Source: Onthophagus taurus (taxonomy: Eukaryota > Arthropoda > Insecta > Coleoptera > Scarabaeidae). From it: 64,000 nt of DNA. A program made the position numbers and the translations under genes. Location: contig NC_091973.1 in assembly GCF_036711975.1 (NCBI RefSeq), positions 186,001-250,000 on the forward strand, in the 5' to 3' direction. Below the pieces are notes generated by a model. It did no database searches. It was not told the DNA's origin and was given only the letters and a program-made list of their open reading frames with translations. Below, in pieces: positions 12,101-63,290 of this stretch. Numbering within the stretch: position 1 is the first letter of the stretch; each line of letters opens with the position of its first letter.

Positions 12101-14988
12101 GCCTCCATAATTGAGTGTGCAAGTGTATAAACCCGGGGATGGTGGCTCGTAATCTACCGTATATGTACCATCTTCGTTATCAGACACTTGTACGGCTACT
12201 AATTCTTTAGTATCTTCGTTTTTAATGAGTACTTCTAAATTTCCGGGACCTGCGTCTCTGTCATTTAAAAAAATATATTTATATGTAAATATGTGTATCT
12301 TGATTATTGCTGGAGATATGACAAAATGTTATTGAAGGAAAGTTGCTCCACATTTAATATTCTATGAACAATCCTTGGAACGGCCGACGTCTTTGAAGTC
12401 GGCCGAGATTATTTCTTCCATAAACTTCAAGCAGGGTAGACTTGAACTAGTGACACCATTAACAAGTTTATGGAAGAAACAGTCTCATCATCAGAACTTA
12501 AGATTTGCATTAATTTTTACCTTGCATCTATATTAAAATGTGTAGGGACATTAGATTTAATTCCATTTTGAATGCCAGGTCCAAATGCGTGTACGCCAGA
12601 AACGTCTAATGGTTCAGACACATGTACTCTATATGGTGAATTTCTAGTCGCAACACCACCGTAATTTACTTGAACTGTGTGTTTGTTTCCTTTTGTTGGT
12701 GTGTAAGACCCTTCTATCGTTCCATCTGGTTTAGGAGTGAGCTTAACATTGACGGAGTTACAATTTGAATCTAAGACTTTAACATCAACCGGGGCGGAAC
12801 CAGCTTTTCTTGGATCGATCAAGAATTTTGTTGGCAAACCTTTTTGAACGCCGTTTTGTTCGATTCCGGGTCCGGAGACTTCGACCTTATCAGGGTAATA
12901 ATCTGTGTCGGGTAATATTTGAGCTATGTAAGGACTTTTGGGAATGTCTTCGTTGTCGCATAAGATGTGAACGGCGTATTCCCCCGGTGCTGTGGGGTAA
13001 TATTTAACGTCAGCCGAACCATCGCCATTATCATGACAAACTATTTTTGCCTGGGACGGCCCTTGAATACTAAATCCTAAAGATCCAGTTTCCCCGTTTG
13101 TTTCAACCGTAAATAATGCTGGATAACGTACTACTCCCCCATTTAAACCAGGGCCATAAGCTCTAATTTGAGTATCTTTAAAAGGAAGAACTTCCACTTC
13201 AAATGGGGATTTATAAATTTCTTGTCCCGCGAATGTTACTTTAATTACGTGTTTTCCTTCTTTGATTGGACTATAAACTGCTTGGTAAGTCCCTCCATCC
13301 AACTAAAAAAAGCGATTATAATTCAAAACTTAATTAATTTATTTTTTAATACCTTTTTGATTTTGCATGGAACTTTAACTCCGCCAGGTCCGATTACGAG
13401 GACGTCCGGTTGACCTTCGCCGGCACCATCGGTATAAACTTTAAAATCTGCATCATCTTTCACCCGAATCCCAGCAGGTTGGAGGCCCCTTCCGCTGGCA
13501 CGAACTTTTTTCGCATCGGAAACCGGAGATATCCGAACTCCGAATGGACTATTTGGAATGAAGTGTCCGGCGAAGAAAATATTTACGGAATGTAATCCTA
13601 CGAACGACGAAACGTACTCGCAACGCCATATATCCGGCGAAGTTTGTCGCACTGTTACAGGAACGGTTGTTTTATGACCTTCAGGGTCTAAAATTATTAC
13701 CTCTGGAACTCCTCTTCCGGCTTCTACAAATATTTTTAATCATAAAGTCGTCATTAAAATATAATGTGTCACTGGACCATGAAAATCATTTTCCGTGACT
13801 ACATTTAATAAAGAAATATATGTTTCTTACCTTTAGTATAAATATCAAAATATGTAACCCTATTAATACAAACTCCATCGGCTTGTAATCCTGGGCCCGA
13901 AGCGGTGACTTTAGTTGGATCTCCAGCGTGTCCTTCCACTAAAACCGTGTAAGGACTTTTAGGAACTTCCCTTCCTGCGAATTTAACGGAAACTTTATGA
14001 GGTCCTTCCATGGTAGGGGTGTAGGAAACGGAATAGGTAAGGTTTCTGTCCTCGTTAAATCGAACTTCGACGGGTTCCTTTTGATTCTTAGGATTTTCCA
14101 CGACGACGTCGACTTGTCCGCGTCCCGCTGAAAACGTTTCCACGGTGAAATTCGCCGTGGCACCAGCTATCGGTCCGGTTGGTTCAATTCCGGGTCCGTA
14201 CACTCTTACTCTAAAATTTTTTTATATTTATTAAATTCGCCATAAAAAATTTATTTAAGAATCATGCATGTTAAAACTTGTCAAATCATGCACGTTAAAT
14301 TCCAAAAATGTTTTTAAAACCCACCCTTACAAATTGACTTACCGAGGGGGCGGAAGACTAAATTAAAAAATGCAAGAAACATTCGTGTTAATTCACTTAA
14401 TTCATTTTTTAATGTTTATTTACGTTTTTTTGGTGCGACTTTATTGCTTATTTTATGTATTTACCTGTTTGGATTAGTTCGTGGTCGTAGTGGTGCTCCC
14501 GTTTTGAGCTTAGCGTTTGGATATTGTGATAGGTAGGTCATCATCGACTGCTCATCTATGTTTGGATTTACCATTTCTTCCGGTTTGATTAATTGCGGTA
14601 CGTTTAACCAATCGTCTGCTAAACCCATCGCTTCGGATGCGTTTTGTACCGAATCCTTTGGATCCCAATCCTTAAAACAAATAATTTTAGTATTGATAAC
14701 CATCGATATAAGAAATTAAGCAAGGAAAAGGATGACGCAAAGGGAAACGAGAGCGGTGCACGAGTATGTGCGAGCGAGAACGCAAGCATCACATCTTATG
14801 TATTATTATCTATGTAAGGAAGGCCAGACTTAGATGGCTTGGCCTCTCCTCCAAGATCCTCCACATGTGGACAAGCCAAAAGCCACATGGAGAAGCTGTC
14901 GGAGGAGAGGCCCAATCGGAAGTGGAAGAAACCGTACCAAGTACCAATTATATGATGAACCACCCCTTACAACCGAAGTATTAATATA

Positions 14989-15036
<48 letters not shown>

Positions 15037-17494
15037 ATTGGGGAAGTAAGATAATCCTCTCCATGTGGCCAAGCCAAAAGCTACACGGAGAGAATGTCGG
15101 AGGAGAATCCGGTAAGTAGAGTAAGGTAAGGTAAGGTATTGATATTAATTTAATTAAGATTAATAAATATTACCGGCCAATCTGGGCATAAACCAGGTGC
15201 TACCGCGTCAACTAACGCCCCAACGGCTTTTCCACTATTCCAATCGGTGGTAAAATTACTTATGGGTAAATCGGGTACTTTGCTTTGGATCCAATTCATT
15301 AATCTTTGTTTTGGCGTTGGGCCTTGTCCACCGTTTTGTTGATCGTCTTCGCCTTCCCACATCGGAAGCGAGATGGAATAGTGTAAAATTAACGTCCATA
15401 TTAACCCTAATATTAATTTTAATTTGCAATCGACGATGTGTGTTGAATCTAAAAATTATAATAATACAAAAAATTGAACAATAAATTGCAATAAATATCG
15501 TGTAAATTTTATTTTTAACCGATGACGGAAAGGCAATAAATCTTACATGTTATCGATGTGGAATTTATGTCGTAAGATAATGAATTAGCAGTTATTATTA
15601 AAAATATATAATAATAATAAACCTACGCGAAGTTAGCCCCCAATTAGATAAAATTTTGAATGTAAAAAGAAAAATAAAACAAATCGTGGCGTTTTTTATA
15701 TGACGAACAATACTTATGGCGGCCGACGTTTTTGAAGTCGGCCGAGATTATTTATTATATCACGAACAATACTTGGGATACCGTGTTTGAAATTTATGGA
15801 AGAAATAATCACGGCAGACGTCGAAGACGTCGGCCGCCCTAAGTATTGTTCATGATACTTAAGAATTCTTAAGAATTAAATGTGGTACAGCTTTTATATT
15901 AAAATATTTTTCTAACTAAATTAATTTTTGGGAAAGAATTGAGTTTTGCGAGAATCGATTTTGATAATAATCAAGTAAGGCCCTTAAAAATATGAACGTA
16001 TAAAGAAAACGAGAAACTATTACAAGGTCGCATTACATCATCGCCAGACGGTGAAGGCGAAAAATGTTTCATCTCGTATTCACCGACGTGACAAAAACAA
16101 AAGGAACGAACGTGATTCTTGGAGAACTGACGTCATCCATTCCATGACACTATGTCATATAGGTGGAGAATCTCAAAAACCGATGATGTCATCGCCTCAT
16201 TTTAAAGAAATTCTTTCCTTATCTAACTGATTACTCCGGAATTTTAAGTTAAACCATGTTTAGAGAAAAAAAGAGTTGCTTTGAAGAATTACACCATAAA
16301 ATAAAGGCTTTTTATTTCTATTTTTTGTGGGTTACGTAAAACATTTTAAAGCAAAACCGGCTTTGGTGTAAACTATATATGGCAAGAGCAAGGTATATTG
16401 TTAAATTTGCAATCTAGACGTGGCCGTTCTTAAAACGGACTTAAATTTCTGTGCCACATTCGAGATCGTTCACCTGTGCGAACGGGGCGCATACCGCACT
16501 TTTTACTTTTGCTTTTATTCTATCGCCAATGCAAGCGCAAGCGCGTAACCAAAAGGATAAAAAATCTTAAAAAAAGAAAGAAAAAAAAAGCGATAAGGTT
16601 TTTGCGATAAAGAAAAAACCTCAATACGCGGAAGTTTTTGGTTTTGTTTATTTCCTCGATTTTTTAGAATTTAATTGATAACAAATTTTAATCGAATCTT
16701 ATTGGTTGTAGACTAAACTTTACAAGATATGAATTTATTTCTCCTTTCAAAACGAGGTAAATGTACTGATGTTTTGTAAACACGTTTGGGGACCTCTGTA
16801 TTTGTTGATATCATCGTTATTTTTGTACGCCGTTTCCAGTCGACTAATTAATTTTTTTTTTCACAATCGGTTTAACTCTAATTAACGAACAAGTGTTATA
16901 TATATATATTAATTTTTTTATTTGCTTTACGTGTTTTTCTTGGTTTTAAAAAACATAATGCGGGTAAGTGCAAATAGAACGTGGCATTTAGATCGAATCG
17001 AACGGTTTCGAACGTTACCTTTTACCAAGATTATCAAAAATAAATATTGAAATTTTCTTATCTCCACATAGAATTATTGAGAATTTTTTTGAAATAAAAA
17101 TATTTTTGTTAAAATTTTTAAACTTACCTATATTAACAATACGGATACCCTCGTCATCTTGTAAAAATTTTAACGCAACGGATACATTTTCCAATTTCTG
17201 AGATCTAAACGATGGTTTCTTGTTAAATTTGCCCATTTTCCGGCCGGAAAGTACTTCGATCAGCGTGATCAGTCGAAGACCATCGCTGAGGTCTGTTTCC
17301 AAGTTGCCGATATGTTTTTCGACGGTCTTCAGGTGTTCGTTGGCCCATCTCGTAAACGTGTTCTGTTGTATTTTCTTCCACTGCGCGTCTTCGGCCAACT
17401 CGCGCTCCGTAGCCACCATTTCGTCTTCTTCGACCTCCGCGAACTCATCTACATGACGAGAATCCAAGACCTGATCCGATACTACTCCCTCCAT
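3156..17494 (-). CDS. cher: Filamin (actin cross-linker), full length
   Basis: Eighteen exons in transcript order: 17494-17128, 15448-15174, 14670-14465, 14210-13831, 13723-13353, 13302-12521, 12257-12016, 11938-11372, 11155-10206, 10149-9982, 9727-9597, 9545-9407, 7858-7663, 6425-5166, 5105-4866, 4580-4161, 3825-3403, 3340-3156. Phases agree at every junction and give 2433 residues. The N-terminus holds two calponin-homology domains ([34 protein letters not shown]), the actin-binding region. About twenty immunoglobulin-like filamin repeats follow (signatures [23 protein letters not shown]). Exon 13 replaces a repeat with a Thr/Gln-rich hinge (TQTQTQTQ). The C-terminal repeat, used for dimerisation in the family, is present. 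Known role: cross-links cortical actin, binds membrane receptors and senses tension. The symbol is the Drosophila name (cheerio). The start is the first Met before the CH domain. Confidence 0.95.
3867..4143. mobile_element. MITE-like element with CAGTG termini in a filamin intron
   Basis: The ends read CAGTGTTTGCCAACAGTCAG and, inverted, CTGACTTTTTGGCAAACACT, with TA on both sides (3865-3866 and 4144-4145). This is the pattern of Tc1/mariner-derived non-autonomous elements. The interior shares a string near 4031 (CTTCAATTTAACATACATAT) with the element at 35920-36096. No transposase frame is visible. Confidence 0.7.
6692..6923 (-). CDS. cher: Alternative first coding exon for a short filamin isoform
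   Basis: An ATG at 6923 opens a 77-residue frame (begins [20 protein letters not shown]). It ends at 6692 with one spare G before a consensus donor (CAAAG|GTAAAA). Exon 13 of the long form also ends with one spare G, so this exon can join exon 14 (6425) in the same frame. The product would carry only the C-terminal filamin repeats. Drosophila filamin is known to make a short form of about 90 kDa from the 3' half of the gene; that this exon starts the equivalent is my inference. I recognise no domain in the 77 residues. A GC-richer stretch at 6925-7020 could be its promoter. Confidence 0.6.
7859..9406. other. Large filamin intron before the hinge exon
   Basis: This 1.5-kb intron is AT-rich. 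I see no exon-like stretch, RNA gene or recognisable transposon in it. Its position upstream of the hinge exon makes it a possible site for internal promoter sequences of short filamin forms, but no specific motif supports that. Confidence 0.4.
12367..12485. repeat. Fold-back repeat of the GGCCGACGTC family
   Basis: The strings CGGCCGACGTCTTTGAAGTC and GGCCGAGATTATTTCTTCCA are shared with copies at 15705-15851 and 31900-32040. Inner inverted arms ATTTCTTCCATAAACTT and AAGTTTATGGAAGAAAC are visible. It lies in the filamin intron between exons 6 and 7. Confidence 0.65.
14841..15110. repeat. Duplicated hairpin flanking an AT microsatellite
   Basis: At 14841-14912 the arms GGCCTCTCCTCC and GGAGGAGAGGCC enclose inner arms around AAGCCAAAAGCCACATGGAG. 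A diverged second copy lies at about 15052-15110 (CCATGTGGCCAAGCCAAAAG and GTCGGAGGAGAATCC). Between them is a TA-dinucleotide run at 14986-15034. It sits in the filamin intron between exons 2 and 3 and has no coding potential. Confidence 0.65.
15705..15851. mobile_element. Fold-back MITE-like element, intron 1 of filamin
   Basis: The termini are near-perfect inverted repeats: GAACAATACTTATGGCGGCC on the left, and the right end read backwards is GAACAATACTTAGGGCGGCC. Next to these lies GACGT...GAAGTCGGCCGAGATTATT, the core shared with the copies at 12367 and 31900. The left terminal string recurs inside the element at about 15762. No open frame is present. The remainder of this intron (to 17127) shows no coding signal. 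Confidence 0.7.
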
Positions 17495-19698
17495 ACTATG
17501 TGTTTATTCCACCAATCGCGTTTGCTTCGAATTTCTTAAAAACCAACAACGTTTAATCGATTTATTATATATTTACACATTACTAAACTTATAATTATTG
17601 CGTTTGCTCACATTTCTCAACTTATTTACTTTTTTGTTACTTAGTACTATTTAATATCCTCCTTAATTGCTTAGTTAATTGCTTAATTACAATAAGTAAG
17701 TAAGAAGAGAGAATGAAGTCATTACATTCAACATAAACATCACTCCCGATAAAAAAACCTTATTTGCGATCTTAAATAAACTTGAGTAAGAATACATAAA
17801 ATATTTCCGATGAAAACTTCTTGCTACAAAAAGGAAACCACACCCCAGATAAAAAGTTGCGAAAAAAGGAAAAAAACTGATAACATTTTAAAACAATTTT
17901 CAAAATCACCTTGATCTATTGTTTCTTAATCTATTTTTAAATTGATTTGGACTGATATCAAAAATTGTTTCTTTTATTTAACCAATCGTTTTTACCTCGA
18001 AAGTAATGACAAAGTAGTAGATTTTGGGTTGTTCTTAAATGGTAAAGTTTTCGACCTTTTCTGTTTTTCGCTATGACTAAGAATCAAAAAATATCTATAT
18101 GATACATTAAATGTAAAGACTTACCTCGGACTGAAATTAAAAATGAAATTTCGATATTTTCACAAATATACGAATATCTGGCACATTGTGGAGAAATTAT
18201 CTTTTTTTAATATAGAATGCCGTGAAATGTATTAAAGAATACACCGTGTGTTGTACACCTCTAGAATGCTAAAGATATATGCGGGCTAATAATAGCGCGA
18301 ACACGTAGTGCGAGTGTTGTTTATAGAATGTTCTTCCAGTCACTTCTTTACTTAAGTTCGTTCTTTTTTATCCCAACCCGAGCACTTGGTAGTAATACTT
18401 ATTTTTTTCTTACCAATAGCACGTTGGTTAAACCACCCTACCATTCTCATTCTGTTTTGAAATTAACTATTTTTGACGCGACTTAACGTCAGCGCAAGCG
18501 CAAACACTTCTTCGTGCACTGTAAACGACGATTAAGCACGATTCAAATGTTTATTCACAATCGGTATTATTCGGTTTTAAGAAACCACCATGCATTTTTC
18601 TTTTACAACTAAAAAAAATCATCAAAATAAATCATTAAAATAAATTATTAAAAGAAAAACTTATTTTTTGCAATTTTTTTTGCGATTTTACCCCAAAACC
18701 TAGATTATCGAGGAATTGTTCTTACATTAAAGGGATTTTGATAACATCTGCTTTAGTGGAATAAACTTTCTTATTGTGCAATCGATTACCTAAAAAGGAA
18801 TCGGTTTGGTCTCACTTATATTGCGTAAATTATGTACATGTAAGGAAGTGAATGTGGGTTTATATCCAAATGAAGGATTTTTGGTAAAATTTTTTTGAAA
18901 TGCGTTTAAGACGTTTTTGCGCGCATTATTAATTTGATAATTATTTTAGGTTCATGTTACACTAAGAATTGCTTAAATACGCAATTGGTTGCCATCGTAA
19001 CACAATTACAGTTAACCAATTGCAATTTTTGTAAATAATTTCTCAATAGTTTTTGCAAAATGGTTAGAATTTTTGCTGATAATAATTTTAAAGTCAAAAA
19101 ATATATTTTTTTGTATTATTTTTTCTTTGGATTCTAGTTACCAGATAATTTGAAAAGTATTAATCTGCTCTATTAACAACTCTCCTTATCATTTAAATAA
19201 GGAGACGCACAGCTAAACCTGAATGTTTCTAGTTCTAACACTAGACCTAGAACTACAACTAGAAACATTTGAGAGAAAATAATTTTTTTAACAATATCTG
19301 TTAATCGGTTAATTTCGTATCTCGTGTCCATTAATTTTCCTCATATCTTATTAAATCTTATCATATTTTATTAACTTTCATTAAATTTAAGTGATGACCT
19401 AAATAATAATTTTTTTTTCTTCTAATATAGATGAAATAAATAATTAAATCTGATTGTTCTTTTTTTCAATACTGACTCATATACAATGTATGCAAAATAG
19501 ATTTATGCAAATAAAAATTGGACACGCTGTACGAATTTGAAACGTCAAAATAATCGGTCAGCTTTACGGGATAAACAATTTTACAATTTAACCGGAAGTT
19601 GAACAAAGGAGATGCAGGAAGTAATGTGATACATGGTCGCACGGTTCTACAAATAATTTGTACAGTAACCGCGTTAATGTTGCAATGTGTTTATTAAA
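17495..19698. other. Upstream region of filamin and of the esterase-like gene
   Basis: Divergent intergenic region of 2.2 kb with no convincing exon. The filamin 5' UTR must start in it; an acceptor-like AG just before the ATG suggests an upstream non-coding exon that I could not place. GCGCAAGCGC near 18490 recurs in filamin intron 1 near 16535 and may be a regulatory motif. Confidence 0.4.
19210..19270. repeat. Palindromic ACTAGAAACATT element
   Basis: AGCTAAACCTGAATGTTTCT and, after a linker of CTAGACCTAGAAC type, ACTAGAAACATTTGAGAG. The two half-arms face outward, unlike the inward arms of full copies. Confidence 0.65.
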
Positions 19699-21853
19699 AT
19701 GTTAAAGATACTCGTGTTTCACTTTGCTTTTGTGTATTCTCAATATTCAACTGATCGGCGGCCAACTATGCAAATAAAGCAAGGAACTATTACCGGTGTA
19801 AGTAAAGGTGGTGTTGTAAAAATTTCGATTTTTAACCTTTTTTGTTAGATTAAGTTGTACGGTGAAGATTTAAAAGTAGTAGATGCTTTCTTAGGAATAC
19901 CGTACGCATCTCCACCAATAAATTATTTAAGATTTGCACCACCAAAAAAACATTTAGGTTGGAATAGAACTTTCGAAGCCACCGAATATGCTTCCCAATG
20001 TCCTCAATTACCCATCTCGAATAAATATAACGAGGATTGTTTGCGTTTGAACGTTTGGGCGCCTGCGAATGCCATCAAAACAGGTCCAAAATCAGTGGTG
20101 ATTTTCATCGAAGGAATCGAATTCCAAAAATCATCCGGAACTCCTATTTCGGGTCAAGATTTGGCCATGGAAGACGTTATTGTCGTTTCAATAAACTACA
20201 GGTTGAACGTTTTTGGATTTCTTTGTTTGGGAATACCGGAAGCTCGTGGAAATTTGGGGTTATTAGATCAATATCTAGGCATATTATGGGTTAAAGAAAA
20301 TATTAAATATTTTGGGGGCGATCCAGAAAAAATTACGTTGTTTGGGTATTCAGCTGGAGCTGCCAGTGTAATGCTTCATGTAACATCACCAAGAACTTTA
20401 GGTAAACAAATAATAAAAAAATTAATAATTTTCATCAAAGAATAATAATATCCTCTGGTTTTATCGACTTGACATATCTCAGAAGATCTTTTTCTAACAC
20501 TAAATCTAGATCTTGAAACATTCTGGTTTAGCCGTCTTGAGAGACGTTCGGTTAAATCCGAATGTTTCTAGTATTAGGTTAACGTTTTAATTTTAAGGTT
20601 TATATCAAAGAATAATAATATCTTCTGGAAGCCCTTTATCGCCTTGGCATATCTCAGAAGATCCTTTTGCACCCAGCAAAAAATTAGCCAACATTTTAGG
20701 ATGTTACAACAAAGATCCCAAAATCGTTTTGAAATGTCTTCAATCAAAAAGTGTTTATGATATTTTAAAATCTTACGAAAATTACGTCAAGGTACAATAA
20801 AAGTTATATTAAAATTATTTTTTTATCAAACAAATATTTTTTAGATGGGAAATCCACTATTTTTACCAATCGTAGATGATTTTCTCCCAGAAAACGATAA
20901 ATATTTGCCGAAAAGTGCAGAAATAGCATTACAACACGACACCAAACAACAAGTTCCCATAATGGTTGGGATTTCGAGAAAAATTTCAGACTTTCAGTAC
21001 AATAAATGGCACGATTTATCAAATCAAGGTATCCTACAGTTACAACAACACATCGATCACGTTGAAATCCCCGAAATTATTCGAAAATATAAATTAAACA
21101 CAAACAATAAAGTACATATTATGGAACTTTTAAAATGGAGGTTTATTTCGTCGAGTCAAAGTCATCTTCAGCTGCTATTAAAACAATTAAAAGATTTAGA
21201 TTTTGAGGCGAAAATCGAAGCACCTCTTTATTCACTTTTAGCAACGTTGGAAATGTCTCATATCGGCCCGTTGTATGTTTACTATTTGAATGATTTAGGA
21301 ATTCATTTAAATACGACAAACGCAACGATTACGTCTGATATGTTATTGTTATTTGGGCCGTTGCTATTCAGTCAGTTAGGAAAGAGAAGACTGACCAATA
21401 AAGAATATCGACTTAGCGTTCAAGTAAAGAGTGCTTTTAAAAATTTTATTATTTTTGGAGATCCAACTCCAACACATGAAAACGAATGGAAACGATACAC
21501 ATCAAACGATCATTACGTGGAAACTTTCCAACCAAACATTTTTAAACAAGAAGATGACATTATTGATAGAAATAGGAGGATATCTTTTTGGTTAAATTTG
21601 TTACCCGTTATTTCTCAAAGAGATCAAGTTATTACGACTAGCCCAAAAGAATTTTCTGGATTAGGTAAAAAATCCCAAAGAAATATTCCCAATAATTTTG
21701 TTTTGTGTTTAAGATCCAACAGCAAGTTTTAAGCATGCCATTTACACTTTGGTGGGGTTAGTCATAGCTTTGCTTATCTTATTGGGAATTTGTATTATTA
21801 TATTAAAGAAAAAATACAAAGAAGAGCATAGAAATTTCCATATGGGTTATTAA
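19699..21853 (+). CDS. Carboxylesterase-like transmembrane protein, probably inactive
   Basis: Five exons: 19699-19797, 19849-20401, 20598-20791, 20845-21664, 21714-21853, giving 601 residues. A short hydrophobic signal peptide (MLKILVFHFAFVYS) precedes an alpha/beta-hydrolase domain with the family marks AFLGIPYASPP and EDCLRLNVWAP. The nucleophile elbow GYSAGAAS keeps its serine. The oxyanion-hole HGGGF position reads IEGIEF, the acidic residue after G-x-x-x-x-E is lost (GISRKISDF), and the usual catalytic His position reads TITSDMLLLFG. A single helix (LVGLVIALLILLGICIIIL) and a tail of about 15 residues follow, so topology is type I. This fits the cholinesterase-like adhesion molecules (neuroligin, gliotactin, glutactin relatives) in outline, but I cannot assign an orthologue. 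Parts of exon 3 and of the 3' end are duplicated next to palindromic elements. Confidence 0.8.
20430..20495 (+). pseudogene. Decayed duplicate of the start of esterase exon 3
   Basis: TCAAAGAATAATAATATC, then ACATATCTCAGAAGAT, repeat the opening of exon 3 (20604-20661) with substitutions and a small deletion that breaks the frame. It lies inside intron 2. The copy is followed directly by a palindromic element at 20514-20571, and the intact exon lies beyond that. Confidence 0.75.
20514..20571. repeat. Palindromic ACTAGAAACATT element between exon copies
   Basis: TGAAACATTCTGGTTTAGCC, centre GTCTTGAGAGACG, then GGTTAAATCCGAATGTTTCT. It separates the decayed and intact copies of esterase exon 3. 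Confidence 0.75.
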
Positions 21854-21987
21854 TTTTTTAAATAGGATTTAATGAAGTGTTATTTTAGTTGAGTAACTTG
21901 TTATTTTCAATAAAAACGTTATGATAGTTTAATTGCATAATAAACATTATGGATATTTGTAAAATACCATTGTTTTAATAGTACTGC

Positions 21988-22020
21988 GTTAAGGCTAAAC
22001 CCTAATGTTTCTAGTTCTAG
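21988..22020. repeat. Half palindromic element after the esterase 3' end
   Basis: TTAAGGCTAAACCCTAATGT followed by TTCTAGTTCTAG is the right arm of the element. A much more degraded form (TTAGGTTAATCTGAATTGTT) follows the second copy of the 3' end near 22170. Confidence 0.65.
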
Positions 22021-22030
22021 ATTTAGTGTT

Positions 22031-22175
22031 AAAAGTATAGAAATTTCCATATGGGTTATTAAGTTGCCTAACTTGTTGCGTTAAATAAAAAGGTTATGTT
22101 AGTTTGGTTGCATAATAAATCTTATGAATATTTGTAAAACACTATTGTTTTAATGCTACTGTTAGGTTAATCTGA
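22031..22175 (+). repeat. Second copy of the esterase 3' end
   Basis: The string TAGAAATTTCCATATGGG plus the stop codon and the 3' UTR of the esterase (21829-21987) occurs again here with substitutions and a deletion of about 35 bases. Both copies keep an AATAAA-type signal (near 21910 and 22085). The copy carries no complete exon. It fills most of the gap to the succinyl-CoA ligase gene. Confidence 0.8.
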
Positions 22176-22365
22176 ATTGTTCAAAAACTCAATCAAGGCT
22201 TATCTTAAAACCTATTGAAATATAAAATTACAAAATGGCCACGTCTTAGTTGATAACAGTATCCGTTATCGTTAGATGTCTACGTAATGGTAGGCAAAAT
22301 AACATTCAGTTGACCGGTGAACTTTGGTTCTTAGTTTTCGTTTGGTTTCAACGCTTAGCGAAAAA

Positions 22366-24970
22366 ATGTCATCCCTCTGGTCCACTTTAAAGCGAACAAC
22401 CAAAAGTTTAAATGTCGCTAAAGTAAGAATATAAACAAAATCCTATTTATTTTAGTACCTAATAACTAACCTCACTTTTTTTGATCTCATTAGAGGCAAG
22501 TCAGATTTTTAAACTTGCTCGAATTCCAAAGCAAGAATTTGTTGAGAAATAGCGGTGTGGCTGTTCAAAATTTTTGTTTAGTTGATGAAAAATCTTCAAG
22601 TGAATTTGAAAATTTTAGTAAGTTAATAATACTAAATTAATTTTATTATTAATAATAATATTAACTTTATTAACACTATCATTAGAACTAACACTAAACC
22701 TAGAACTAGAAACATTCAGGTTTAGCCTTGCGTCTTGATACTTGACTTCAATAAAAATATACTACAACCTAATGCTGAATAACAACTAAAACTAGACCTA
22801 ATACTAACACTAGTACTAACACAAGACCTGGTATTAGAAACATTCGGGTTTAGCCTTGCGTTTTTCAAGACGGCTAAATCCAAATGTTTCTAGTGCCAAC
22901 ACAAGACCTAGAACTAGAAACATTCGGATTTAGCCGTCTTGAGAGTTTTCGGCTAAACCCGAATGTTTCTAGTTCTAACACAAGACCCGGAACTAGAAAC
23001 ATTCGGGTTTAGCCTTGCGTCTCTCAAGACGGCTAAATCCGAATGTTTCTAGTTCCAACACAAGACCTAGAAACATTTGGGTTTAGCCGTCTTGAGAGAC
23101 GTTCGGCTAAACCCAAATGTTCCTAGTTCTAGATCTGGTTCTAGGTTTAATATTAGAACTAGAAAGATTCAGGTTTAGCCGTCTTGAAAGGCATATGGCA
23201 AAACTTATATTAATTAATTTTAATATAATAATATATTTTATTTACTAGAAACATTCGGGTTTAACCTTGCGTCTCTCAAGACGGCTAAATCCAAATGTTT
23301 CTAGTTCCAACACAAGACCTAGAAACATTTGGGTTTAGCCGTCTTGAGAGACGTTCGGCTAAACCCAAATGTTCCTAGTTCTAGATCTGGTTCTAGGTTT
23401 AATATTAGAACTAGAAAGATTCAGGTTTAGCCGTCTTGAAAGGCATATGGCAAAACTTATATTAATTAATTTTAATATAATAATATATTTTATTTACTAG
23501 AAACATTCGGGTTTAACCTTGCGTCTCTCAAGACGGCTAAATCCAAATGTTTCTAGTTCCAACACAAGACCTAGAAACATTTGGGTTTAGCCGTCTTGAG
23601 AGACGTTTGGCTAAACCCAAATGTTCCTAGTTCTGGATCTGGTTCTAGGTTTAATATTAGAACTAGAAAGATTCAGGTTTAGCCGTCTTGAAAGGCATAT
23701 GGCAAAACTTATATTAATTAATTTTAATATAATAATATATTTTATTTACTATAGATGCAAAAGAATATGTAGTTAAAGCACAAATCTTAGCCGGTGGTCG
23801 AGGTAAAGGTCATTTCGACAATGGTTTTAAAGGTGGAGTTCAACTGACTACCGAGTAATTCCCTAAAATAATTAAATATATCCAATAAAATAGAAACTTT
23901 TTAGTCGCAACATCGTTAAGGATTACGTTTCAAAAATGTTGGGGCATAACTTAATCACCAAACAAACCCCAAAACAAGGAATTCCAGTTAAACAAGTTAT
24001 GATAGCCGAGAGTGTGAATATCACGAAAGAAACTTACATTTGCATATTAATGGATCGAACTTATAACGGACCTGTGATTATTGCTTCCCCCGCTGGAGGA
24101 ATGGATATTGAGGGTGTTGCTGAAAAGACTCCAGAATTAATCAAAAAAGTTCCAATAGATATCCATCAAGGTAAATTTATAATAATAAAATTAAAATGTA
24201 ATCATTTTTTTTTGTACAAACAGGTGTAACTGATAAAATAGCAGATGATTTGGCAGCGTTTTTAGAATTTAAAGGCGAACCGAAGAAGAAAGCAGCTGAA
24301 GAAATAAAAAAGATTTGGGAAATGTTTAAAAAAGTTGATGCGACCCAATTAGAAATTAATCCTTTAGCGGAAACGGATCAAGGATTAGTAATTTCCGTCG
24401 ATGCCAAGGTCAACTTTGATGATAACGCCAAATTTCGACAAAAAGATGTTTTCTCTTTAGAGGATCACTCCGAAACCGATCCTAGAGAAGTTGAGGCTGC
24501 TAAATATAACTTAAATTATATTGGAATGGATGGAAATATTGGGTAAGAATTTTCCAATAATAATTACAATTTAAAAAATTTTTTTATTTATTAGTTGCAT
24601 GGTAAATGGTGCTGGTTTAGCAATGGCAACAATGGATATAATAAAATTACATGGCGGCGAACCCGCGAATTTCTTAGACGTAGGCGGAAGTGTCCAAGAA
24701 AATCAAGTACGCGCAGCTTTCAATATATTAACTTCCGATCCAAAAGTGAAATCAATTTTTGTTAACGTTTTTGGGGGCATCGTGAATTGCGCCGTTATCG
24801 CAAAAGGCATAGTCGCTGCATCCAAAGACTTAAAGATCCCTCTCATCGTCCGATTAGAAGGCACCAACGTAGCCGAGGCAAAGAAAATTATCAGAGAATC
24901 AGGATTAAATATCCAAGCATCCGACGATTTCGATGAAGCTGCTAAAAAAGCTGTGGCCAGTGCCAAATAA
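22366..24970 (+). CDS. SUCLG2: Succinyl-CoA ligase beta subunit, GDP-forming type, mitochondrial
   Basis: Six exons: 22366-22422, 22494-22617, 23755-23854, 23905-24170, 24224-24542, 24595-24970; 413 residues. The N-terminus is rich in Lys, Ser and Thr without acids ([19 protein letters not shown]), as in mitochondrial presequences. The mature part begins [13 protein letters not shown]. It holds the ATP-grasp segment with [16 protein letters not shown], the metal-site region ([25 protein letters not shown]) and the CoA-ligase domain ([50 protein letters not shown]). The enzyme pairs with the alpha subunit to convert succinyl-CoA to succinate with nucleotide triphosphate formation in the citric acid cycle. 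GDP rather than ADP type is inferred from resemblance ([25 protein letters not shown]). Intron 2 holds the largest palindrome array. Confidence 0.93.
22685..23754. repeat. Palindrome array with three 252-bp tandem units
   Basis: Alternating inverted arms (ACTAGAAACATTCGGGTTTA and GGCTAAACCCGAATGTTTCT), joined by linkers of the type AACACAAGACCTAGAAC, fill most of intron 2. From 22992 the sequence is organised in three nearly identical 252-bp units: 22992-23243, 23244-23495 and 23496-23747. Each unit holds two hairpins, a half hairpin and an AT-rich stretch ending TTTTATTTACT. That stretch is the pyrimidine-rich end of the intron, so the last unit runs into the true acceptor at 23754. Only a few substitutions separate the units, so the amplification is recent. 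Confidence 0.9.
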
Positions 24971-30891: not shown

Positions 30892-31715
30892 TAGGTAGAA
30901 ATTGCCGTGGCTTAGAGTTAAGCGCCTGCGTTGAGTTGTATAATACTACCTCGGTTTTAGTCGATGTATACGGCAGTCATCTTACATTCGCCGTTGAGTT
31001 AGCGCGGGTACCGTGCAAAAGAAAGTTTTCGATATCAAAAAAAAATAGATATACATTCGCGTTTAGTGTGCGTTGTACTAAAAGATGTGGTACCCTGGCG
31101 ACGAAATCACTAAATAAATCCCGATCGTAAGTAAACTAACAAACAATATTCGCCTTTCAGTAAGTAAGGGCTTTTAAACTCTTTTTAACATTTCCTTTTT
31201 TTGTCGTTGTTAATTTATTCGCGATCAAATACTCAAAGAATTTACTTCTTTGTACAAATAAAAAAAAATATTTAATAAAAATTTAATTATTTTTTTGTTT
31301 CGTCTTAAAATAGTTACGGGTACTGAACTAGTTTCGCTGAATAAAAAACTGATACGGGTTTAAACAGGAAGTTTCACATTGGACGACGGGGTAATTTCGA
31401 ACACGTCCTCCTGTGCGAAAACCCCATCTCTTCAATTTGCAACTTTTCGCGGCTCTAATATCACGGTTTAATTTAAAGGCCGCTTCTCATTGCTATTTCA
31501 TCGAAGAAAATGAAACTTCTCAATGAAGCTTAATCGATCTCGCGTAATCGAAAATCACAATTTTAGTTTTGAAAAAAAACTTTTCTTAAGAAATGAAGTT
31601 TTCTTTTATAAATTAATAGTTATTAAGTATCTGAAAATTTCTCGCACGATGAATTATTATGGAAATGTGGGAGCAAAATAATTGTTAAAATTTTCAATAT
31701 TCCGCCATTTTGATT

Positions 31716-32145
31716 AATGCATAAATTAATCTTCCAGGAATAATTAAATAAGTTTAAAAATTAATGTTGGTAAACCTAAAAGCAACCTAACCCCAATGCA
31801 AATTAATAAAATGAACCCAATCCAACCTCAATGCAAATTTATCAAATCTCAAAGCAAGTCAACCACGCAGTAATTCATCTCCAAAAGAATCAACCTCCAA
31901 GTATTGTTTGTCATTCTTGGGGCGCCCGAGGTTTTCGAAGTCGGCCGAGATTATTTCTTCCATAAACTACAAGCAGGGTAAACTTGGTTTCACGGTCTGA
32001 ATCTCGAGTGATACCATTAACAACTTGTAAAACTACTAATTCACCAAATTTTCATATTTTCGAGAGCAAAAGTGAAAGAGAGCTCGTTTGCCATATTGAG
32101 TTATGCATAAATTAATCTCCCAGGAATAATTAAATAAGTTCAAAA
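31716..32145. repeat. Diverged direct repeat pair
   Basis: ATGCATAAATTAATCTTCCA with GGAATAATTAAATAAGTT occurs at 31719-31757 and again at about 32104-32142 with few changes. Related strings (AAATCTCAAAGCAAGTCAAC; AAATCCCAAAGCAACTCAAC) recur near 31842 and 32617. Confidence 0.6.
31900..32040. repeat. Fold-back repeat of the GGCCGACGTC family, third copy
   Basis: GAAGTCGGCCGAGATTATTT, TCTTCCATAAACTACAAGCA and ATACCATTAACAACTTGT match the filamin intron copy at 12367-12485. The copy sits between the two halves of the direct repeat at 31716-32145. Confidence 0.65.
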
Positions 32146-32656
32146 ATTCCATGTTGTTCAACATCTTCCATGTCTTTTGTGGCATCCCTCGTCCTCTAAA
32201 TTAAGTTGGCAGTTTCGCGAGTTTACCATCCTCATCATGCTATCCAGCTCGTGATTCATCCTGATTCTCCAGCTACCGTCTTCCTGGGTTCCTCAAGCTT
32301 CTCCTAAAACACTCTCAGCGTGACCTCCTTTTTGCGTCATCGACCACGTTCCTAAGTTATTACAGGTCTTATTTGCGTTTTATATATTTTAAACTTGGTC
32401 TTAAACCTTCTTCCGCGATTCATCAAAGTGCTCCAAATGAATTCTTATTCTGTGAGAATATTCTTAGCTTAACAGACACATCGCCTTTAAGGAATGGGGA
32501 TGCGCTAAACAACACGATAAAGTCCAATACTCGTTGGAACACTTGATTAAGCTTTATGTCTGCGAAGATGATTCTGCAAACCTGAAAGCAACCCATCCTC
32601 AAAGGAAATTAATCAAATCCCAAAGCAACTCAACCATGAAGCAACCCATCTCCAAA

Positions 32657-41163: not shown

Positions 41164-43712
41164 GTCAAATTTGATTTCGAACGTACAGGGTCTTTCGTCA
41201 AATATAAATCATTTCGTTTTGTTATTTTTACTCGCTCAAAAATAATCAAAAAACAATTTTTATAAAAATAACAACATAAAAATATCAGACTGACTTAAAA
41301 AAAATAAATAAAGAAAAAGAAAGAAATGATTTGGATTTCTTTTTAGGTTTTGACCGGAATAATGAGAAATGAAACATAAATGGTAATTAGCTTTAATAAG
41401 AAAAAAAAATGGTCTTGTTTTATAATCGTTGACGTTTATTTGTTTTTGTGTTAGTTTTGCAATACTTTATAGGTGTTACATTCTGTATATTTTTTGATAT
41501 ATTTTACTCTATATATTGATATTGGGGTGCATATTCGAAACATGTATCTAAACGAACATTTTAATCAAAAATGAAAAAAAAAAACAACTACAATGTATGT
41601 TTAGATGTATCAATGTTCTTTCTGTTTGAATTTTAACATATACATATATATTATAAATATATAATATAGAATAACTGTGATCTTTTTTGTATACGATATT
41701 ATTATTTAGTTTAAGAAAGATAATAATACCGACGATAGACAACAATATGTAATTAGTGAGATAAATATAATACTAAACGTCTATAGGTAACAGGATTTTA
41801 AGAAAAAAATAACTGTTCTTTGATTTTTAATTATTAGCAATAACAATTATTTTCTTACTTAAGATTTTTTAATTTATTTTTAAAGCAACAGTATTACTAG
41901 AGTTAATGTACGTGTATTATTGTGATAAAATAAAGCATTTTCATGCAGTCACTTTTGTATTTTTTTTTATTGCTCTTTTATTCAACTCGCGAAGTTATCG
42001 CTTTAACATAAAAGAGTAAACAGTACATATGTCAACTCTGATAATGATAAAGAAAAAAATTTATGATAGCTTCCTTGTTTTATTTCGGATTAACATTTCA
42101 CCTTAATTTCAAATTCCTTTCTTTTATAAGTCAGACTTTAGATTAATTATCGTTCCAGAAATTATTATCGTAGTTTTGATGTTAAAAACAGTTCTGTATT
42201 TACAAATAAGACGTTATCAGAAAATTATAAATAAATTGTTTAACATTCATTTAACATTTTATTACTTTAAGAAATAATATATAATATTATTTATACAGGT
42301 TTTTTACCACACTGTATCTACAATATATTAATCTACTAAATGTGGATTGAAATATCTAAACTAGAGCAAGGAACATTGTCCTCGAGGGCAGCAAAAACAA
42401 TCTTGGAAGATTTGGGAAAGGAGCGTTAAAAGATTGCTAAAAGGTTTGAAATACGATAATACAGTAGCCGAACAATTCTAAAAAGTCATCGTTGAATATT
42501 GTGCACAATATAGCGGCTAAAAGGAGAAGTCAACCATCACCCAAGGCTATTCATGTTCTAAAGAAGGCGGTGATCGGTAACCATTTTTTCTGAATCACCA
42601 TCATTTTAAATAGCGACTAAATCATAGGCATTTTCAACCTGAGAATGAAGACCAAATATTTAATTAATTCAAAACGACAACTTAAATATTAACTGTTTAG
42701 AGTATATTTGAGAATTAATTTCTCAGAAAATTATCATTATATCAAAGATCGGTATTCTGCGTTAGATTCCTTAATTAATTTTGAATAAGACAGCAACATT
42801 TAGTTTGTTCACATTAGTGAGAAATAAATATTTTAAAACAAGCCTACAAGACATTAATATAATTATTTTTATAAATTTATTTCTCAAGAACTAATCGAGG
42901 TATGAAAACGAGGTTTGAAGCTTTAGAAGCTATATATGAAGCTATATCGCACTGAATTATACATAACCATTAATTAAATTTGCTATTTTTCCCATTAATG
43001 AAATTAAAACAAAATAAAATTTGGATCATAATGTAACTTGATCCTGCATGCACCAAACGCAAATAATTACAAAATTAATTCGTCTGCAATTTTCAGTCGT
43101 TTTTAAGTTTATATCATCACAATTATAAAAGAGATTTCCGGTGATTTTTGTATAACATCATGGGAAGTCCCTGTTTACAAATTATTGCCATATTTTATAA
43201 CTTAACAAACAAAGGAACAAGATAAGAATTGAAGATATCCGGGGATTTTTGTATATCATAAGGGGAAAACCCCCGGTTTTGATATTATTGCCGTATTTTA
43301 TAATTCTGTAAACTCATTTTATAGTATGCAGTACATCGCAAACAACGCGATTGATTCAACATAAAAGTGGTGTTGAAATAATTTATTAATAGATAAACGT
43401 TGGAAACGTAATATCGATTATATTGAACGTAATTAAGACGAAACGTAAGTAGAAAAAACGAAATTTATTCTTAAATAAAATTAAAATGATTAAATGAATG
43501 TGTTTAAAAGAAATTAATAAATTATATATCGAAGTTGTCGTTAATATTTGTGACTTAACCTTCTCAATGACCCTTAGAATCAATAGCGTATAGTTGAATC
43601 AAAGTGTATTTAGTGTGTCTACGGCAGTGGCACGCGGCAGACCGAGCTGAGGCCGCCAAATGTCAGTGTGTCGACCTGCATAACAAACATAGTGTTACAA
43701 TTTAATGGAATT
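41164..43712. other. Intergenic region between zinc-finger and NAPRT genes
   Basis: 3' UTR sequence of the zinc-finger gene with an AATAAA signal near 41930 comes first. After that the DNA is AT-rich and apparently non-coding. A stretch at 42350-42560 has fragments that might be a very decayed transposase. GC-richer sequence at about 43610-43680 is the likely NAPRT promoter or 5' UTR. Confidence 0.5.
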
Positions 43713-48406: not shown

Positions 48407-50290
48407 AGAAGGAGAAGGAAACATTTTTGGGAAAACAAAGAATTTTACAGTTGAAGATTGCCAGAAAATTTAAATGAAACGGCGTGTTCTAAGAAGTACT
48501 TTTTAAGTCTTGAAAAAGTTTAATATCTGTTGGTTATTAAAAATATATATTTTTTATAAGTATATTGATAATTTAGTTAATAATTTTGTACTTGTTAAAC
48601 TTGTTACAGTTTCTTTTTTTAATTTATTTTTTACTTATTGTTAGTTTTTTTACTTAAATAATTAATCTATTATTATTGAAAACTTGAGATGTAAACGGAA
48701 CGCAAAGGTAAACGGAAATATTAAACATTTTATTAATTTTCGAATATCTTCTACAAGCCTAAGCAAACACACACAACAATTAATGGTACAAATCGCAAAA
48801 GTTTATTTCTAGATATTACAAAGATATCTAAAGCACCAATAAGTCGCTATTAAAAACATAAAAACATTTGCGTGGCTGTGAATGTTGTAATAATTTAACT
48901 ACATACAAATTGTTACCTAATAAAAAGTGTTATACTTATTTAAAAAAGTGAAAAGGAAGCACTTTTGCGGAAACTACTTCAAAAAATGCTGGTCAGTGCT
49001 TTTATTTAAATAACGCTTCTTTTTTTTAATCACGTTCTACTTCACCTTGGCATCTCTTAATTAGTGGGTATATTTAAATAAAGGCATTTGACAGTAGCCT
49101 TAAATAAATACAAAAAATATATAGAATAAAATAGTTATTAGAATATCTTTTGCATTCAAATGTATTAAGTCTTTTATATAGTTTTTTCTTTATATATTAA
49201 AAAATAATAACATTATAAATATAATGTTTTCTAAAGAAATATTTGAAGTTTTTTTTGTTATAGCATTAGAACTAGAAACATTTGGGTTTAGCCATGCGTC
49301 TCTCAAGACGGCTAAACCCAAATATTTCTAGTTCTATATTCCTAGTGACCAAAACATTAAGGTAAGGTAAAGTTTAGCAACTTTCGTTTTCATGGTAAAT
49401 TTGATCAGGGGATTTTGCGAGTTCAGGTGGTCTAGTAACCCCCTGGAATGAGTTTCTGACGAAGAGCATCCACGGCATCTTTGACTGGTACTCTGGTAAA
49501 TAGAGGGCGCTAGATGGGATACGTCCATGATAACACCCCGAAGAGAACATTTAAAACAAACTCCCAGCGGAACCCGACACAGTGTTGTTGGGTCATATAT
49601 GATGTTGAGATGATAAACAAGTGATAATGAATTAAGGTTTTAAATAAGACAAAAATAAAAAATGTAGTGTTTGAGTCCAAAGTTTATTGCTTATTAAAAA
49701 AAAACACATAGCCTTTTTAAGATCAAATTATTATTAATTGTAATTAGTAATTGCTAGTTTATTTACATCAGACTAGAAAGAAGATTTAGCTTTTTGTTTT
49801 TTTTTGTTTTAAAGTAATCCACATTTAAATTAACAAAATAATTCTATATACAAATAAACCTAAATTAAGTAGTAGAGCATGAACGGTGCAATTCAAATAG
49901 AAATTTGATATATTAATTAAAAAAAAAAAAAATGATAACGCAACAATTTCTATTACTAATTTTTTACGAACAAAATCCAAAATTAAATGAACCAGAAAGA
50001 TAAAATTAAAAAAAAGAAGTTGCCGTTAAATAAATTACATAAAAAAGTACATTGTTACTATCGTTCTCTAAAAATTATGTAATCTGAGATGCTTGATCAA
50101 TATTTTTGTTGATCTATCGCTTTTTAGAAGGGGGGATTATTTAAAAGTGAACCGCTTTCGAAACAGCCATAGTTATAATTATTTGGTAACACTCACAAAT
50201 GCTCAAAATATATTTGGTTATAAATAACAGGATCTCAATAAATTACCTCCCAAAAAATAATAAAATAATAACAAATTTGGTCGAACCCAT
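48407..50290. other. Convergent 3' flanks of NAPRT and schizo
   Basis: AT-rich, with no gene. It contains a palindromic element at 49266-49336, followed at 49340-49600 by a locally GC-richer stretch that has a CTCF-like string (AGAGGGCGCTA at 49502-49512). The part next to schizo is probably its long 3' UTR. Confidence 0.45.
49266..49336. repeat. Palindromic ACTAGAAACATT element
   Basis: AGAACTAGAAACATTTGGGT, centre GCGTCTCTCAAGACGG, then CTAAACCCAAATATTTCTAG. One of the best-preserved isolated copies, with no obvious flanking duplication. Confidence 0.8.
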
Positions 50291-62071: not shown

Positions 62072-62240
62072 AGAAACATTCGGGTTTAGCCGTCTTGAGA
62101 GACGCTCCGCTAAGCCCGAATGATACTAGTTCTAAGTCTAGTATTAGAGAACTAGCAATATTTGGATTTAGCCATGGGTCTAGCATTAGTTCTAATAGTA
62201 GACCTAGAAACATTTGGATTTAGCCATCTTGAAAGACGCA
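62072..62240. repeat. Two palindromic elements and a half copy
   Basis: GAGAAACATTCGGGTTTAGC, centre GTCTTGAGAGACG, GCTAAGCCCGAATGATACTA; then TAGCAATATTTGGATTTAGC and, after a linker, AGAAACATTTGGATTTAGCC. They are arranged as in the ligase intron but more diverged. Confidence 0.75.
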
Positions 62241-62879
62241 CTATTAAATTAAATTTGGTTATGAATGCACAGATTTTTCCTAATTATCCAATTACTTTGA
62301 TTAAATCACTCCAAAAGTTTTATAATCCCAATAAAAAAATGTCGTTTCACGAAAGAAATAACAATTTTTAGCGATAATTAAAATGTTACTTAAAGAAACT
62401 GTTTTGAAAATACAATTTTAGCTGGTTAAATTAAAAACGGTATTCCAGTTATATCTATGTCACATTAATTAGAAAGTTTAAACAATTAAACGGTTATAAA
62501 ACTAACGTTAGTTCATAAATATACTAATAAAAACAATTGGTATATTGTATACAGTTACATATCAAGATCAATAAAGATTGTATTTATTGATTATACGTCA
62601 CAAATTTGGTTAACCTCCGTGTTATTTATTGATGCTTAATAACGTCTACTACGTCAGAGATATTAATTTTAAAGCAAAACTTATTTGGCATTCGATGTCG
62701 TAAAGCGCCCAAAAAATTAACTGTATAAATTAAATTAATACAAATTGAATTAATAACAAAAATTAAATAAACAAAATAAATTAAGTAAACAGTAAATGAA
62801 AAATTGCGATGTATAATAAATGATGAAGCTTTCTATTTAAAGGTACGTTACCCTAGATAAGTGCTAGAAATGTATTAGA

Positions 62880-63238: not shown

Positions 63239-63290
63239 GCGTTTAGCCGTCTTAAGAGCCGTTCAGCTAAAATGTTTGTAGTTCTAACAC
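63239..63290. repeat. Degraded palindromic element
   Basis: GCGTTTAGCCGTCTTAAGAG and CGTTCAGCTAAAATGTTTGT, followed by AGTTCTAACACGAC, keep the centre and right arm of the element. The flanking DNA to the window end shows no gene. Confidence 0.6.

Follow-up and report, generated by a model that had tools for sequence, protein, structure and literature searches.

Fragments of a dispersed palindromic repeat between direct copies of host DNA in an Onthophagus taurus esterase gene and at a minority of other loci

Why does one short palindrome recur beside duplicated host DNA three times within 4 kb? The question is raised by a stretch of 64,000 nucleotides from Onthophagus taurus (contig NC_091973.1, positions 186,001 to 250,000; hereafter the window), in which a palindromic repeat that we call P accompanies duplications at two sites in an esterase gene and in intron 2 of a ligase gene. 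An earlier note on this DNA had treated the three as alike, each unit consisting of host DNA plus element, and had proposed a hairpin-induced template switch or an unusual insertion mechanism. We find an association between P and flanking duplications that is real but modest; the best account of it is a known process of repair, operating on a satellite-like core that is abundant, with no need for a new mechanism.

P is a unit of ∼127 bp whose consensus forms a near-perfect inverted repeat across about 110 bases. An exact 19-base half site of P has 4135 matches (2048 + 2087) in the 291-Mb genome searched, in which the window is a portion of contig C8, and the reversed control has 0. Within the window, P matches cover 1539 bases in nine islands. 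At the start of esterase exon 3, one such island stands between two direct copies of the host sequence:

20398-20493, + strand: left copy of the esterase intron 2/exon 3 start, decayed, with a strong core at 20434-20493 (alignment to 20574-20668)
20494-20580, unstranded: P, near-complete single copy (P profile match, E 1.3e-21)
20574-20668, + strand: right copy, including the working exon 3 start from about 20598 (alignment, COesterase profile)

The strong core (20434-20493 versus 20604-20668) aligns with a score of 81, and a gentler alignment extends the copies to the limits given above, with 76 of 87 ungapped positions identical (87.4%) and the outermost part, the first ∼20 bases, weak. Of the two copies, the right one is the exon 3 in use, because the match to the COesterase profile reaches position 206 in the stretch up to 20400 (profile positions 24-206 from 19852-20400) and resumes at position 209 from 20600 (profile positions 209-269). 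The description of this site as decayed copy, element, and intact copy is therefore accurate.

The 3′ end of the same gene is duplicated around a partial unit:

21825-21986, + strand: left copy of the esterase 3′ end, with the last codons, the stop, and downstream DNA (alignment to 22034-22161)
21991-22031, unstranded: half palindrome separating the copies (P profile match, E 1.2e-8)
22034-22161, + strand: right copy of the esterase 3′ end (alignment)

The two copies are identical at 110 of 128 ungapped positions (85.9%), as expected from the claim of a 3′ end duplicated around half an element, and by our reading of the sequence the last codons and stop of the esterase are located in the left copy. 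A second, degraded half element had been claimed after the right copy; the P model matches there (22147-22165) with only −2.4 bits and an E value of 0.43 in 200 bases, and 39.7% of stretches of 29 bases drawn at random from the window align with at least the score of the candidate near 22162-22190. Because the second half element is unsupported, we describe this site, too, as copy-element-copy. The translation of an open frame that follows 21733 (21734-21853) resembles a short-tailed membrane anchor, and this frame is a possible final exon of the esterase.

The ligase intron has a different topology:

22671-23708, unstranded: array of P units in ligase intron 2 (P profile)
22748-22788, + strand: linker Q, which separates P units at other loci (Q profile)
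22992-23243, + strand: copy 1 of a 252-bp tandem unit made of palindromes and the AT-rich intron end (self-comparison)
23244-23495, + strand: copy 2 of the tandem unit (250/252 identical to copy 1)
23496-23751, + strand: copy 3 of the tandem unit, with the splice acceptor directly after its end (98% match to the reference copy)

Three copies of the unit, each with 213 bases of palindromes and 39 bases of AT-rich intron end, run head to tail across 22992-23751, so the reported triplication at the end of the intron stands, and its first two copies are almost identical. ACTA is common to the left (ACTAGAAAC) and right (ACTATAG) edges of the triplication, and the exon that follows matches ATP-grasp_2. 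An AT-rich similarity of 26 to 28 bases flanking the whole array (22635-22662 and 23716-23741) was too simple to count. The ligase case reflects ordinary tandem multiplication, at a later time, of part of a preexisting P array together with the neighboring intron end. A unit of host DNA plus element is thus found in the ligase, where the palindromes lie inside the repeated unit, but not at the esterase sites; the two esterase sites are of one kind, and the ligase is a plain tandem triplication. Likewise, the view that the three duplications arose at different times holds for the ligase, which is clearly of another age, but not for the two esterase duplications, whose copies are similarly diverged.

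What kind of repeat is P? Tandem P arrays are frequent at other loci, many with the ∼42-base linker Q between units, and some terminate in a block that we call T (181-base model) or U (98-base model). T and U are oppositely oriented on the two sides of P/Q at four loci (C1_1058811, L068, L077, and L107), and their outer 90 bases align with a score of 54, against a best of 36 in 500 shuffles. A T-end pattern allowing up to 2 mismatches has 745 genome matches versus 4 for its control. By eye, TA follows 19 of 25 listed T/U ends; 5 of the 25 came from a search pattern that itself includes TA, and without them the count is 14/20. As judged from sequence, then, P looks like the tandemly repeated, satellite-like core of a nonautonomous DNA transposon family, a short transposon-like element, some of whose arrays end in related, oppositely oriented blocks. 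Short target-site duplications show no general excess at the islands (score of at least 14 in 4/76, versus 37/1000 in controls that are inflated by other arrays), and an Rfam scan of 19000-24500 returned hairpin look-alikes only, every one under its gathering score.

This anatomy recalls known transposons (here and below, the papers cited are drawn on in part). Bivalve pearl-family miniature inverted-repeat transposable elements (MITEs) such as DTC84 carry a satellite-like array with a palindrome in a short element (PMC5139131), and satellite-like arrays are borne by Helentrons in oyster (PMC7492417). The P family has related terminal inverted repeats and a short internal satellite-like array, both features of tandem-repeat-bearing MITEs, and, as in those nonautonomous transposons, the palindromic array sits in a short element and units are also dispersed singly with abrupt junctions (PMC5139131, PMC7492417). 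Unlike the bivalve and oyster elements, the P family has another sequence and other ends (T/U), and long flanking duplications are not among the features described in the parts of those two papers used here.

Two further associations of P were observed. At six loci (L009:1188-1562 and L091-L095; the latter 72 to 80% alike to L009), a reverse-transcriptase-like stretch is joined to P at one and the same place, and P-free copies of it (L116 and L117) extend beyond the joining point. By eye, we take this stretch to be Penelope-like; three open pieces of it had no match in Pfam. P also lies at the borders of other arrays, since islands stop 0 to 2 bases from other tandem repeats with a spacing of about 363 to 393 bp at L074:654/655, L075:863/864, and L098:1163/1166.

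Are flanking duplications a general property of P islands? We compiled islands from the listed half sites on C1 (L009-L078) and the best matches L002-L005 and L008 (L006 and L007, which overlap this set, were left out, and L085-L090 were unused), along with islands at T ends (L079-L084), islands joined to the retroelement-like stretch (L091-L095), and 20 sites of a second pattern (L096-L115). Direct similarity between 350-base flanks was scored, with a threshold of at least 50, for islands with no fewer than 100 bases to either side; 88 islands had usable flanks, 66 scored as P or P plus Q only and 22 with T and/or U. Direct flank similarity was found at 6/88 islands (controls, 103/2000 over all loci and 18/2000 with three array loci excluded) and inverted similarity at 1/88 (controls, 16/2000 and 34/2000, respectively). 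All six islands with direct similarity abut their duplications. The flanks of the L063 island (576-1206) are similar in the inverted, not the direct, sense (score 103).

Once the loci that hold other tandem arrays were set aside (11 loci with 12 islands, which reduced 88 to 76), abutting duplications remained at 5/76 islands versus 29/20000 random placements. Outside the window, the counts were 3/67 islands versus 23/9982 non-window placements (Fisher p 6.6e-4, only approximate because control draws overlap, the 29 abutting draws coming from 10 loci). A later batch of six islands outside the window yielded 0/6, which brings the outside total to 3/73 (67 + 6), about one island in 25, against the same 23/9982 placements. 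The comparison of genomic copies with random sites suggested in the earlier note thus recovers an excess outside the window, but at few islands: the excess of flanking duplications is real, and at such a frequency it is not a general behavior of the P family. With array loci excluded, 58 islands score as lacking T and U and 18 as having T or U; the five accepted cases all belong to the former group and none to the latter. L077 was dropped as a sixth case, its flanking segment having a further tandem copy, and L050, with 23-base copies (20/23 identical), was too short and was excluded from the counts.

The three accepted cases outside the window share the copy-element-copy layout. At C1_863230, a ∼3-kb P array stands 1 base from the left copy and 12 from the right, and the copies agree at 240 of 254 ungapped positions. 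At L112, copies at 469-611 and 1134-1276 (143 bp, 94%) surround family-matching DNA that runs from 632 to about 1138 and fills the gap. At L071, copies of 75 bases (67/75) flank P units, with 84 bases of unassigned DNA (1065-1148) between the units and the right copy. Genome searches with the duplicated segments of L112 and C1_863230 returned two local copies each and no third; the search for L071 was swamped by a neighboring repeat. To the left of the L071 site, at 100-367, is a dispersed repeat with 111 genome matches, mostly in two query pieces (1-123 and 127-267). For the two esterase sites, the genome matches listed fall on the palindrome.

How closely the element fills the space between copies bears on the order of events, and a later insertion into an old duplication is disfavored where both edges fit, because random insertion would fit just one. 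With gentler alignments, the left/right edge distances are 4/2 at the esterase 3′ end, 1/12 at C1_863230, and 0/−6 at exon 3, and the chance of such a fit at the other edge is 0.025, 0.04, and 0.062, respectively; for L112, in its first alignment, it is 0.27, and for L071 it is 1. In our judgment, both edges fit firmly at the esterase 3′ end, C1_863230, and L112; at exon 3 the fit is weak, and at L071 there is none. It is accordingly less likely that the duplications are older than the elements, given the three cases with two closely fitting edges, although exon 3 contributes little to this argument and L071 fails it.

The other P islands of the window have no detected flanking duplication (P profile and flank test; all unstranded):

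1220-1309: P unit
1574-1617: partial P unit
19201-19271: partial P unit
49264-49338: P unit
62072-62248: two P units
63239-63287: partial P unit

Local direct duplications free of P are also present in the window, at 31704/32090, 31812/32583, 43132/43233, and 14856/15054. They span 31704-32656, 43132-43303, and 14856-15106, with (AT)n between the copies in the last.

The explanation that we favor, and hold to be somewhat probable, is that P fragments were captured during staggered-break repair or template switching, in the course of which the flank was copied twice. We infer, as a starting point, a break. A fragment of the P core lacking the outer transposon ends would be captured as a patch at a staggered break with two nicks about 75 to 300 bp apart, or, alternatively, a polymerase would switch to a P copy as template and back to a point behind the break; by fill-in or by template switching, both of which suit the sequence, the stretch between would be copied twice, giving the copy-element-copy product. 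This explanation is favored because duplication length is variable (roughly 75 to 300 bp), the inserts end differently, with no common end by eye, complete transposon ends are lacking, and the junctions are mixed. By eye, host and P have letters in common at some edges (AAACCC at the left of L112, TAGGT at the right of exon 3), and other junctions have none, with extra bases at two (12 at C1_863230 and 84 at L071); such a mixture of shared letters, no shared letters, and filler fits what end joining or template switching leaves. In the esterase, one complete copy of each exon would have been kept even though an edge falls in coding DNA, and the insertions could therefore have survived, which may be why a gene-bearing window has two cases among its nine islands.

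Precedents for this process come from plants and from break-repair studies. Insertions of 10 to 1000 bp in rice with tandem or partial flank duplication have been ascribed to asymmetric nicks (Vaughn and Bennetzen 2014 as summarized in PMC7407515). The P cases have the corresponding features, namely, an insert between direct copies of the flank without a third copy (L112 and C1_863230), variable duplication length, and no fixed insert ends; unlike the rice insertions, the DNA between copies is here repeatedly one repeat family, and the genome is animal-like. Where breaks have 3′ overhangs, Pol alpha-primase/CST fill-in and theta-mediated joining give small tandem duplications (PMC8355091), and there, as here, the stretch between two nicks is doubled with or without microhomology; a captured repeat between the copies distinguishes the P cases from the fill-in duplications as that source describes them.

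Several points weigh against capture during repair. With array loci kept, the excess is 6/88 islands versus 407/20000 random placements, a ratio near 3, and those loci were dropped after the data had been seen; the control draws overlap, and the last batch of islands added no case. The tight fit at both edges depends on the gentler alignments, since under stricter ones the larger edge gap is 0.20, 0.27, 0.21, 1.12, and 0.40 of the copy length in the five cases. At C1_863230, the right edge is a 28-base inner fragment of T (model positions 2-29) that went unscored in a later run, and no recent donor of the L112 insert is seen, the best other match among the scored candidates being 87%. Capture of mitochondrial DNA at primate breaks gives duplications of 1 to 11 nt, in 17/71 events (PMC2567098), and tandem duplications account for just 2/50 polarized insertions in Drosophila (PMC4056370).

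The same strict alignments lend weight to coincidence, in which P would have inserted later into existing tandem duplications or duplications would have grown around an old P by unequal exchange. Local duplications free of P are common (the four in the window and many at other loci, several of the latter being satellite arrays), and at L077 the element does sit in an array, the segment beside it being present in one more tandem copy. The restriction of the duplicated DNA at L112 and C1_863230 to two copies in the genome search and the low chance values at the esterase 3′ end, C1_863230, and exon 3 argue the other way, although those for L112 and L071 do not, and we regard coincidence as unlikely but as deserving serious consideration. 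A hairpin formed by the palindrome during replication could itself have provoked a template switch, as originally proposed, and the almost perfect palindrome of the consensus and three case edges lying near its center by eye speak for this. Yet the 154 island edges show only a slight bump near the center, with 67 within 15 bases of a unit end, the esterase 3′ site contains half a unit, and the junctions are mixed; the hairpin-induced switch thus finds little in the edges to recommend it and seems to us improbable as the cause, while a role for hairpins in the duplication is possible.

Two explanations call on mobile-element enzymes. In hybrid element insertion or alternative transposition, a transposase that uses the ends of two elements, or of sister copies, would place an element near its old site and thereby double the stretch between, and the P family has transposon-like ends; the resulting direct duplications are in tandem and have an element where they join, as here, including three small natural cases among 7611 maize hAT insertions (PMC3744419). 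None of the five accepted cases has both element ends, however, one having only the inner T fragment described above, and no duplication accompanies the 18 T/U islands outside array loci; induced maize duplications range from 8157 bp to about 5.3 Mb (PMC3744419). We consider this route a poor candidate. The joining of the reverse-transcriptase-like stretch to P at one place in six loci, with two P-free copies running past that place, would suit reverse transcription by a retroelement acting in trans with an unusually long target-site duplication. Against it stand the label itself, given by eye to a stretch of which three open pieces have no Pfam match, and P inserts that share no common end by eye. 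Insertions of Penelope elements in rotifers have duplications of 8 to 10 bp or none (PMC3846280), far from the lengths of about 75 to 300 bp seen here. Of the explanations considered, retroposition strikes us as the least credible.

Under capture or template switching during repair, the esterase sites and their counterparts elsewhere are most likely scars left where break repair took in a piece of a repeat, a type of process already known but here in a newly described setting. Literature searches made without the organism's name found no report of flanking duplications at the P family. A bolder and rather doubtful extension is that copying at breaks is a regular dispersal route of the P core, with the hairpin-forming unit a preferred patch that spreads without transposon ends, duplicates 75 to 300 bases of its target, leaves an exon intact, and so enters genes without destroying them. 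The finding connects, within one genome, a dispersed palindromic satellite core with scars like those of repair, and it points to sites for testing. If P is not over-represented among patches, these loci would exemplify patch repair in a genome that is animal-like; if it is over-represented relative to other common repeats, they would offer natural evidence of the way in which satellite units escape from their arrays and of the reason that their insertions in genes are tolerated.

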